From positions 1 through 44,498 of the forward strand of contig JAGWIC010000015.1 of assembly GCA_028866435.1 (NCBI GenBank): a stretch of 44,498 bases of DNA, written 5' to 3'. The position numbers and the translations under genes were made by a program. Of the stretch, positions 21,612 through 28,170 are shown one piece after another (within the stretch, counting starts at the first letter, position 1; each line of letters opens with the position of its first letter). The DNA comes from Lysobacteraceae bacterium. GTDB taxonomy: Bacteria > Pseudomonadota > Gammaproteobacteria > Xanthomonadales > Rhodanobacteraceae. Below the pieces are notes generated by a model. The model made no database searches, was not told the DNA's origin, and saw only the letters and a program-made list of their open reading frames with translations.

Positions 21612-21620
21612 TGTGGATAA
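21612..21620 (-). promoter_or_regulatory. DnaA box (perfect)
   Basis: TTATCCACA on the minus strand, in the rpmH leader between rpmH and dnaA. Confidence 0.85.
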
Positions 21621-23110: not shown

Positions 23111-23162
23111 GGGCGTGAACGAGGGCGTCGCGGCAAAGCTAGGGATAACAGGGGCTTCAAGC

Positions 23163-23171
23163 TGTGGATAA
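23163..23171 (-). promoter_or_regulatory. DnaA box (perfect)
   Basis: TGTGGATAA on the plus strand, the exact complement of TTATCCACA, in the predicted oriC. Confidence 0.85.
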
Positions 23172-23196
23172 TAGGTGGATGTCTTGACCCTGAAAG

Positions 23197-23205
23197 TTAT
23201 CCACA
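23197..23205 (+). promoter_or_regulatory. DnaA box (perfect)
   Basis: TTATCCACA, followed by TGTGGTA, so that CCACATGTGG forms a small palindrome around its 3' end. Confidence 0.85.
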
Positions 23206-23292
23206 TGTGGTACACCGTCATCGAGCAGCTTCAGGCACAACCCATTTCTCTTGCAATAAATTGTTTTTGAAGGAGAAAATGGCAAAAAGCCG

Positions 23293-23301
23293 TTATCCAC
23301 A
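23293..23301 (+). promoter_or_regulatory. DnaA box (perfect)
   Basis: TTATCCACA at the edge of the AT-rich stretch, 64 bp before dnaN. It is the box best placed to nucleate unwinding. Confidence 0.85.
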
Positions 23302-23365
23302 ATGCCAACAACAACCACTAAACTTCTTTTAAAGACAGAACAGCAGGTATAGGGGAAGCCAAGCC

Positions 23366-24466
23366 ATGCAATTCAGCATCCAACGAGAAGCCCTGCTCAA
23401 GCCACTGCAACAAGTGGTAGGCGTGGTCGAACGACGCCAGACACTGCCGGTGCTCGCGAACCTGTTGGTCAAGGTTGGCGACGGCAAGTTGTCGCTGACG
23501 GGCACGGACCTGGAAGTGGAGATGGTGGCGACCGCCGACGCCGAGAAGCTGTCCGACGGTGAAATCACCATACCGGCTCGAAAACTGTTCGACATCGTGC
23601 GGGCATTGCCCGACGGCGCGCGGATCGAGCTCAAGCTCAACGGCGACCGGGTAGCGCTGAGCGCAGGACGCAGCCGTTTCACGCTGACCACCTTGCCGGC
23701 CACCGAATTCCCCACGATCGACGAAATCGAACTGGTCGAGAAAGTCACGCTGCCGGAGGAAGTTTTGCGCGACCTCATGGAACGCACCTCCTTTGCGATG
23801 GCGAACCAGGACGTCCGCTACTACCTCAACGGCATGCTGCTGGACTTGCAGGAGCACACCCTGCGCTGCGTCGCCACGGATGGCCACCGCCTGGCGATGA
23901 AGGAAACCAGGCTCGAGAGCGCGGTGAGCACCCGCCGCCAGATCATCATCCCGCGCAAGGGCGTGAACGAGCTGGTTGGCCTGCTCGAGGCCGGCGACGG
24001 TGAGGTGGAGCTGGAGTTCGGGCGGAACCACCTGCGCGTGCGACGTGGCGAGGTGACTTTCACCTCGAAGCTGATCGATGGCCGTTTTCCCGATTACGAA
24101 GCGGTGATCCCGCTGGGCGCGGACAAGACCGCAACGCTGGATCGCGAGGTGCTGCGCGGCGCCTTGCAGCGCGCGGCGATCCTGTCGAACGAGAAGTACC
24201 GCGGCGTTCGCCTGGAGCTGTCGCCCGGCAAGTTGCGCATCGTCGCCCACAATCCGGAACAGGAGGAAGCGGTCGAGGAGGTTGAGGCCGAGACCCATGT
24301 CTCCGATCTGGCGGTCGGGTTCAACGTGGGCTACCTGCTCGATGCGCTGGCTGCCTTGCGCGGCGAGAAGGCACGACTGAGCCTGCGCGATGCCCAGTCG
24401 AGTTGCCTGGTACAGGAGCACGACAATGAACTGGCTTGCCACGTGATCATGCCGCTGCGTCTGTGA
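23366..24466 (+). CDS. dnaN: DNA polymerase III beta subunit (sliding clamp)
   Basis: A 366-residue clamp monomer with three similar domains that pair into a ring around DNA and tether Pol III and other factors. Typical segments are MQFSIQREALLKPLQQVVGVVERRQTLP at the start, FAMANQDVRYYLNGMLL, and the C-terminal hydrophobic-pocket end HVIMPLRL. The length equals E. coli DnaN. It lies just after oriC and is followed by a predicted terminator before recF. Confidence 0.98.
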   Translation: MQFSIQREALLKPLQQVVGVVERRQTLPVLANLLVKVGDGKLSLTGTDLEVEMVATADAEKLSDGEITIPARKLFDIVRALPDGARIELKLNGDRVALSAGRSRFTLTTLPATEFPTIDEIELVEKVTLPEEVLRDLMERTSFAMANQDVRYYLNGMLLDLQEHTLRCVATDGHRLAMKETRLESAVSTRRQIIIPRKGVNELVGLLEAGDGEVELEFGRNHLRVRRGEVTFTSKLIDGRFPDYEAVIPLGADKTATLDREVLRGALQRAAILSNEKYRGVRLELSPGKLRIVAHNPEQEEAVEEVEAETHVSDLAVGFNVGYLLDALAALRGEKARLSLRDAQSSCLVQEHDNELACHVIMPLRL

Positions 24467-24561: not shown

Positions 24562-25633
24562 ATGAGGCTGGAGCGGCTGCGGATCGATGGACTGCGCTGC
24601 CTGGCCGACGTGCGGATCGAACTGGATCCGGCGATCAACGTCTTCGTTGGCGCCAACGGTGCCGGCAAGACCAGCTTGCTTGAGGCGCTGTTCCTGCTTT
24701 CCCATGCGCGTTCGTTCCGTTCCGGCGCCAGGGACGCGTTGACCCAGAGGGGCGCCACACAGTTGTCGATCTTCGCCGAGTTTGGGTTGGACGAGGGGCG
24801 TGTACGACGGTTGGGCCTGGGGCGCTCGGGCGGACGCTGGGAAGCGCGGGTCGACGGTGCCAGCGTCGGCCTGGCTGAGCTGGTGCAGTCCTGCGCCGTG
24901 GTTTGCTTCGAACCAGGCTCGCATGCCCTGATTGCCGGCGCGGCCGAAGAGCGGCGGCGCTATCTGGATTGGGGCGTGTTCCACGTGGAACACGACTTTC
25001 TCGCCTTGTGGCGGCGGTACCAGCGGGCGCTCAAGCAGCGCAACAGCTTGCTTCGCTCGGAAGCGGCGGCGGACGATACGCTGTTTGAGCCCTGGGAGCA
25101 GGAAATGTCCCAGGCTGCCCACAGTATCGATGCGCTGCGAGCCGATTACCTCAGCGCGCTCCGACCCCGGCTGGCGGTCGGCATGCAAGGCTTGCTGCCC
25201 GAACTGGGTGCGGTGGACCTACGCTACCGGCGCGGCTGGCCGGATGAGCAGGCGTTGGCACAGCAGTTGCGGGAGCAGCGGCGCAGGGACTTCGCTCGCG
25301 GTCATACCACCCTCGGTGCGCATCGGGCGGATTGGTCGATAGCGTTCGAGCATGCACCCCTGCGGGAACATCTGTCCCGCGGCCAGGAAAAGCTCGCCGC
25401 CCTGGCTTGCATGCTGGCCCAGGCCGAGGTTTATGCCGTAAACCAGGGCCACTGGCCCCTGGTTTGCCTGGACGACCTCGCCTCCGAGCTCGACCTGGCG
25501 CATCAGGCGGCCCTGGTGGCACAACTGGTCAAGGCCGACGCCCAGCTGCTGTTGACCGGCACCGAGTTGCCCGCGGCACTCCAGGACCTGAGCAGCCGGG
25601 TGTTCCACGTGGAACAGGGCCAGATGACGCGCC

Positions 25634-25641
<8 letters not shown>
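24562..25641 (+). CDS. recF: DNA replication and repair protein RecF
   Basis: A 359-residue SMC-like ATPase that, with RecO and RecR, loads RecA at single-strand gaps. Walker A is GANGAGKTSL (residues 30-39), the ABC signature region is LSRGQEKLAALA, and Walker B is VCLDDLASELD. The codons for VFHVE at 139-143 and again at 347-351 carry two identical parS-like sites. The stop codon overlaps the -10 of the gyrB promoter. Confidence 0.97.
24977..24992. promoter_or_regulatory. parS-like ParB binding site 1 (inside recF)
   Basis: TGTTCCACGTGGAACA is a perfect 16-bp palindrome of the chromosomal parS form (consensus TGTTTCACGTGAAACA) and extends to 18 bp with flanking G and C. It is about 1.8 kb from the predicted oriC. 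It encodes RecF residues VFHVEH. Position and sequence fit a centromere site; ParB itself is not encoded in the window. Confidence 0.82.
25601..25616. promoter_or_regulatory. parS-like ParB binding site 2 (3' end of recF)
   Basis: A second exact TGTTCCACGTGGAACA, 624 bp after site 1 and in the same reading frame (VFHVEQ). It ends about 20 bp before the extended -10 of gyrB, so it covers the normal -35 position. Confidence 0.82.

Positions 25642-28170
<2,529 letters not shown>

Follow-up and report, generated by a model that had tools for sequence, protein, structure and literature searches.

The window analysed here, a stretch of 44,498 nucleotides from the genome assembly G000, contains recF next to the probable origin of replication. 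The usual gene order in such regions is dnaA-dnaN-recF-gyrB, from which the two neighbours of recF were named. The relevant features are the following:

23111..23365, no strand: probable oriC, occupying the interval between dnaA and dnaN; TTATCCACA boxes at 23163, 23197 and 23293
23366..24466, + strand: dnaN-like ORF (366 aa) from the ORF list, upstream neighbour of recF, named from gene order
24562..25641, + strand: recF (359 aa), host of both parS-like sites; an ORF matched by PDB RecF chains, with 75% identity to Rhodanobacter loci
24977..24992, no strand: parS-like site 1, palindrome TGTTCCACGTGGAACA, RecF codons V139-H144
25601..25616, no strand: parS-like site 2, identical palindrome TGTTCCACGTGGAACA, RecF codons V347-Q352
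25738..28170, + strand: gyrB-like ORF (810 aa) from the ORF list, downstream neighbour of recF, named from gene order

A search of the window with the pattern TTWTCCACA gave five matches compared to 0.23 expected, two of them outside the oriC interval at 21612 and 22455. The initial annotation had described two identical parS-like 16-mers inside recF within about 2.4 kb of the predicted origin. Both were found at the positions listed above with 0 mismatches to TGTTCCACGTGGAACA, and they are located ~1.7 and 2.3-2.4 kb from the TTATCCACA boxes of the inferred oriC. They share one reading frame, with starts 624 bp apart, and are read in the recF frame as (G)TG TTC CAC GTG GAA CA, encoding VFHVEH at site 1 and VFHVEQ at site 2. 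When the window was shuffled 100 times, the mean number of TGTTCCACGTGGAACA matches was 0.12 even with up to three mismatches allowed. Across assembly G000, which comprises 128 contigs and 3.08 Mb and is 89.4% complete, four places matched with ≤ 2 mismatches, namely the two exact copies in recF and two places with exactly two mismatches on other contigs. The genome-wide count proposed in the initial annotation thus left only the recF pair at ≤ 1 mismatch, and a reversed-pattern control gave no match at ≤ 2 mismatches in the same assembly, whose completeness of only 89.4% means that additional parS sites may be present elsewhere in the chromosome. By simple arithmetic (3.08e6 / 4^16), a perfect 16-mer is expected fewer than 0.001 times in a random sequence of 3 Mb, and therefore chance does not account for two perfect 16-mers in a stretch of 640 bp next to the origin.

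On another contig of G000, we identified a parB ORF of 289 aa (TIGR00180, E 4e-56) and immediately upstream of it an ORF of 292 aa that was named ParA-like by eye. The deduced ParB protein matches solved chains of ParB, Spo0J and Noc. In ParB of Caulobacter (6t1f), residues R173 and G201 are described as parS-type specificity residues in the available part of PMC7383237; the GRSR and MGHAR stretches of the G000 protein resemble these positions and may correspond to them. Several features by which a sequence is assigned to parS are found here: a 16-bp palindrome that is oriC-proximal and near-absent elsewhere, a genome encoding ParA and ParB, and selection on the site that is independent of the protein, as described below.

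The assignment of the 16-mer to a known chromosomal parS form was borne out by excerpts of the literature on Pseudomonas aeruginosa, in which parS2 and parS3 are exactly the TGTTCCACGTGGAACA 16-mer and ParB ChIP-seq revealed enrichment around parS1-4 (PMC5098823). According to these excerpts, parS1 and parS2 lie within recF (PMC5521831), and nine of the ten parS sites, whose sequences have been reported, are most likely located in coding sequences (PMC4368675). Like the pair in the window, parS1 and parS2 are both oriC-proximal and in recF, parS2 being identical and parS1 having C as its last base (PMC5521831, PMC4368675, PMC5098823). P. aeruginosa possesses two further oriC-proximal sites, parS3 and parS4, whereas in the window genome the recF pair alone was found. 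PMC5521831 describes both of these as intergenic, PMC4368675 only parS4. The presence of parS inside recF is thus already published for P. aeruginosa and hence not new.

Xanthomonas citri belongs to the same order as the window organism. Its parS is nearly the same 16-mer (TGTTCCACGTGGAACG) and is likewise located near oriC, but at the 3′ end of dnaN and not in recF, according to the accessible part of PMC3937727. Unlike X. citri, three Pseudoxanthomonas loci have both recF sites plus a third parS-like site ahead of recF (157 bp before it in L047 and L048, 67 bp before it in L053); in position, these upstream sites resemble the parS at the dnaN end in X. citri. A third site just after recF was observed in a Mizugakiibacter locus (L033). 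In Caulobacter crescentus, ParB-parS is situated near the origin, as here, and the recF-gyrB region is a hot spot for parS insertions, whereas the native parS cluster is located elsewhere, as far as described in the available sections of PMC5815017.

To place the pair in a wider context, we determined its distribution among relatives. All 59 family genomes contained TGTTNCACGTGNAACA with ≤ 1 mismatch; 50 had exactly two places, six had three, two had one and one had four. Among the 36 of these 59 genomes whose places were listed, the pair was found inside recF, 612-627 bp apart, in all 36. The 59 genomes together had 124 TGTTNCACGTGNAACA places compared to ~39 for the reversed-pattern control, which gave 0-3 matches per genome across the family, class and order tables. 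Since the control matches are nonzero, genome counts alone are weak, and it is the positions in recF that carry the argument. Of the 276 class genomes, 242 held the degenerate parS pattern, with the control likewise nonzero; a RecF match was present in 233 and a ParB match in 263. All 80 named recF loci had a site at both positions with ≤ 2 mismatches. These loci had been fetched partly by peptide patterns, including DWGVFHVE and VFHVEQGQ, so that the conservation of the peptide among them is biased and only their codons were used. The pair was also present at the homologous recF positions in four Halopseudomonas loci (L062, L067, L076, L082) and in Pseudomonas saliphila (L070). A strict signature of recF site 1, TGGGGNNTGTTYCACGTG, occurred in 54 of 397 phylum genomes, but as this pattern misses variants, it does not prove the absence of recF sites outside the class. 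A single one of these genomes (G592) belonged to another class, and the stretch around its match gave no RecF hit.

The initial annotation had considered that the RecF sequence and a high-GC codon choice may favour the palindrome. By this explanation, conserved RecF peptides and a preference for GC-rich codons would yield the 16-mer as a coding coincidence lacking any DNA-level function. It is in line with this that the same peptide is encoded at both sites of one gene, and that most RecF genes in the alignment have a WG.F(H/Y) stretch at site 1 whether or not they carry the site. Synonymous codon usage argues against it. For the family, we used the best-scoring 30 of 58 RecF matches, chosen by the score of the whole protein and not by the peptide to avoid bias. 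In these 30 genes, the mean synonymous entropy was 0.08 bits at the site codons versus 1.45 bits elsewhere, and the only conserved degenerate codons without synonymous variation (8 of 140) were all located in the two sites. Ranked by variation, site 2 (0.00) and site 1 (0.02) were first and second of 1062 windows of 16 nt. The invariance stops near the edges of the 16-mers; the adjoining 16-nt flanks showed values of 0.18 and 0.46 around site 1 and 0.60 and 0.48 around site 2, where the contrast was clearest. In 33 named Rhodanobacteraceae-like genes, five of 131 codons were below 0.3 bits, again all inside the sites. The Glu codon was GAA at both sites in 30 of 30 family genes; the window's recF has a GC3 of 0.805 and contains 14 GAG and 11 GAA codons, both site codons counted. 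The codon comparison across the family, which the initial annotation had put forward, thus revealed a constraint confined to the two 16-mers: the codons of both sites were held in relatives that retain ParB, which is the opposite of free synonymous drift.

For a broader sample, recF DNA of the class was obtained from 157 of 233 genomes, comprising those with the better RecF scores as well as hand-picked ParB-negative and small genomes. Addition of 69 recF genes from the order with E. coli-like genomes (RecF in 116 of 120) and of recF from E. coli K-12 gave 227 genes, and the class and order sample is accordingly weighted to better RecF scores. Inclusion of the 80 named loci and of the window's own recF brought the alignment to 308 genes. 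With respect to ParB, 192 of the 227 genomes were classified as positive (strong match) and 18 as negative (no match), and 17 with weak, divergent or plasmid-like matches were set aside. The latter group includes G344, which was placed there by judgement because its match (E 5e-54) is on a second contig and its family relatives have only weaker matches or none, and E. coli K-12, likewise placed there by judgement; an E. coli control genome had a TIGR00180 match.

The result obtained for the family was also seen in this sample. GAA was used in 133 of 134 genes having the peptide with Glu at each site, where about half would be expected from each gene's own usage. CAC, GTG and RAA occurred together at site 1 in 141 of 149 ParB-positive genomes with FHV[EK] (13.8 expected from own codon usage) and at site 2 in 149 of 162 (14.6 expected). 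In 100,000 simulations the maxima were 30 for site 1 and 31 for site 2, values that serve as a yardstick and not as an exact probability, since the sampled genes share ancestry. In the 227 genes, the preference at site 1 depended on the presence of the peptide. At H141, CAC was found in 147 of 152 genes with the peptide (75.3 expected) versus 23 of 49 genes that had lost it (17.8 expected); at E143, GAA was found in 133 of 134 (68.2) versus 12 of 24 (13.5), and at V139, GTG in 82 of 84 (32.1) versus 9 of 26 (8.0). Site 2 without the peptide showed a modest lean to the parS codons, with CAC at H349 in 6 of 11 (3.1 expected), GTG at V350 in 10 of 24 (7.3 expected) and GAA at E351 in 15 of 18 (11.0 expected). 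The Phe codon, at which C or T is free in parS, had only a mild preference (TTC in 87 of 152, 63.3 expected). The residue before F at site 2 is variable (M, V, L, T, R, W, A, K) and yet G is the last base of its codon in 164 of 168 genes, the other four being three alignment gaps and one ATC.

Furthermore, FHVE is not a general feature of RecF. E. coli RecF has CFHNEP at site 1 and MFTVEK at site 2, and at site 1 FHVE is absent from the four PDB RecF chains compared (2o5v, 5zwu, 8a8j, 5z67), in which site 2 lies beyond the alignments and which we take to derive from organisms outside the Proteobacteria. An origin of the palindrome from coding constraint was rejected, as it is contradicted by the codon tests: GAA, CAC and GTG are strongly over-represented relative to the codon usage of the individual genes, and the site codons are the sole synonymously invariant ones among 140. 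The probability left to a coding coincidence is almost negligible. Selection appears to act on the DNA of the sites independently of the encoded protein.

Taken together, the two 16-mers very probably represent the parS centromere of this chromosome, kept by selection on DNA which fixes the RecF codons and largely the residues F-H-V-E/K. Because the sites are located in recF, selection for the centromere also acts on codons and largely on residues of this gene, at two places where RecF itself would presumably accept other residues.

A further explanation is that the RecF protein needs the peptide and that a DNA- or RNA-level signal other than a ParB target fixes the codons. Synonymous constraint indeed reveals a signal at the level of nucleic acid and not the protein that reads it. 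Arguments against this scheme are provided by P. aeruginosa, in which the same 16-mer is a ParB-enriched parS and recF likewise contains two sites according to the excerpts cited above, by the ParA-ParB pair encoded in the genome, and by the loss of the peptide in most lineages lacking a ParB match, although few independent events are involved. A recF site with ≤ 1 mismatch at either position was present in 176 of 192 ParB-positive genomes (at both positions in 122), in 3 of 18 ParB-negative genomes and in 5 of the 17 set aside. Neither site was found at ≤ 1 mismatch in 16 of the 192 ParB-positive genomes, four of which have a site with two mismatches. Among the 18 ParB-negative genomes, none had site 1 at this threshold and three had site 2, in full in G114 and with one mismatch in G249 and G283. 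Since the assemblies of G113 and G114 have a completeness of 90% and 95%, respectively, parB may be absent from these two assemblies only. In raw counts, the site 1 peptide was present in 149 of 192 ParB-positive versus 0 of 18 ParB-negative genomes, and the site 2 peptide in 162 of 192 versus 4 of 18.

On the RecF tree, the ParB state changes only five times. An independent-pairs test of ParB against the peptide yielded 4 pairs (5 on all branches), a number with which significance for this link is impossible, and the median p was 0.5 for site 1 and 1 for site 2. Where the pairs differ, each peptide accompanies ParB and not its absence; for the trait "either site present" a few pairings ran opposite to the direction of ParB (0.1-0.2 on average). 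The decay of the peptide can be followed in genus g27, in which the ParB-positive G025 has MFHVEP and MFHVEH, and G155 and G249, in which no ParB match was obtained, show LFHAEP at site 1 and either MFHVKR or MFHVKH with decaying codons at site 2. RecF of family f153, which is probably Pasteurellaceae-like, has LFH[HQ].. at site 1 and is variable at site 2, and that of f180 has mostly CFHHYP at site 1 and IFHIKS, IFHINS or IFNIKS at site 2. A signal read by a factor other than ParB has in our view a very small probability, and RecF presumably does not require FHVE for its own work.

We also considered that the recF pair is a genuine but minor or relict parS, the working centromere being located in a portion of the genome that is missing from the assembly. 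The completeness of 89.4% would leave room for this, and some relatives have an extra site adjacent to recF (upstream in L047, L048 and L053, downstream in L033). Yet exactly two places at ≤ 1 mismatch are present in 50 of the 59 family genomes, most of which are ≥ 99% complete, and in every family genome with listed places a pair is present within recF. The chance that the working centromere lies elsewhere is small.

Nucleation and spreading of ParB and ParA-driven segregation of origins are established for ParABS systems. If the two 16-mers act as parS, ParB, encoded beside ParA on another contig, would nucleate on both recF sites and then spread across the oriC-proximal region, and ParA would move the ParB complex so that the newly replicated origins separate first. 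At a distance of 1.7-2.3 kb from oriC, the two sites would be replicated almost immediately after initiation. As a cost, RecF would have to accommodate F-H-V-E/K at two positions. Judged from sequence, binding and spreading of ParB and segregation at the recF sites are thus predicted for this species.

In ParB-positive genomes, the Phe codon and the codon of the fifth residue were combined at site 1 as TTC-GAA (84), TTT-GAA (47), TTT-AAA (17) and TTC-AAA (0), with one GAG, and at site 2 as TTC-GAA (74), TTT-GAA (57), TTT-AAA (24) and TTC-AAA (6), also with one GAG. The association of E or K with the Phe codon had a raw Fisher p of 1.6e-7 at site 1 and 4e-4 at site 2. On the tree, 4.7 pairs showed the same and 0 the opposite direction at site 1 (median p 0.0625), and the association was weak at site 2 (4.6 versus 1.1, median p 0.25). 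Pairs of the type F-x-x-[EK] elsewhere in recF leaned in the same direction as at the sites (p 0.06), and hence the raw signal is partly due to shared ancestry and base composition. A pairing of the change from E to K at the fifth residue with TTT for Phe is suggestive, not proven. A second kind of change concerns the centre of the palindrome. CAT for His occurred at either site in 9 of the 214 genes having both peptides (of 308) and at both sites in five of the nine, giving a CATGTG centre by synonymous exchange of CAC in both copies (L022, L054, L074, L118 (G162) and L242 (G341); L022 and L054 are close relatives). This suggests a concerted change, perhaps by a shift in ParB specificity or by gene conversion.

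On this basis, we consider it likely that a two-site centromere in recF dictates RecF across much of the Gammaproteobacteria: the two F-H-V-E/K segments would be due to parS, the exchange of E for K together with the Phe codon would keep the symmetry (TTC..GAA or TTT..AAA), and the paired CATGTG in about four lineages would point to a drift of ParB specificity which RecF follows. That part of the RecF sequence in much of the class stems from the centromere is well supported for the codons and moderately supported for the residues. The extent of the recF pair within the class and the imposition of part of the RecF sequence by a centromere look new. In the portions available of the P. aeruginosa accounts (PMC5521831, PMC4368675, PMC5098823), an effect of parS on the RecF protein sequence is not discussed, nor did we find it stated in the accessible open-access literature, which leaves aside the parS survey of Livny 2007. 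The case shows how a chromosome-level signal can determine part of a protein unrelated to it, and RecF residues that are seemingly conserved and could pass for functional ones are more readily accounted for by selection on the centromere. The recF pair provides a simple genomic marker of an oriC-proximal centromere in unstudied gammaproteobacteria, and lineages that have lost ParB or moved parS represent natural knock-outs in which the decay of a protein segment could be followed after its release from the DNA constraint.

Several lineages deviate from the common arrangement. Three genomes of family f46 (G045, G168, G257; loci L135, L131, L133) have a weak ParB match (E 5e-34 to 5e-36) and no parS-like place at ≤ 1 mismatch, and their recF site 1 reads AFYLDK; their ParB may be divergent and recognize a different target. 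In family f160, both recF sites are gone from the recF genes of G299, G317, G350 and G377, and 9 to 12 parS-like places at ≤ 1 mismatch were found genome-wide in G277, G317, G365 and G389, as also in G100 and G241. The loss of the recF sites in f160 together with the many parS-like places suggests that the centromere may have relocated and increased in copy number there. In family f174, which we take to have two-chromosome genomes, the site 1 peptide is lost, and site 2 is TGTTYCATGTGGAACA in seven of seven loci (L216-L219, L224, L230, L231), always with CAT.
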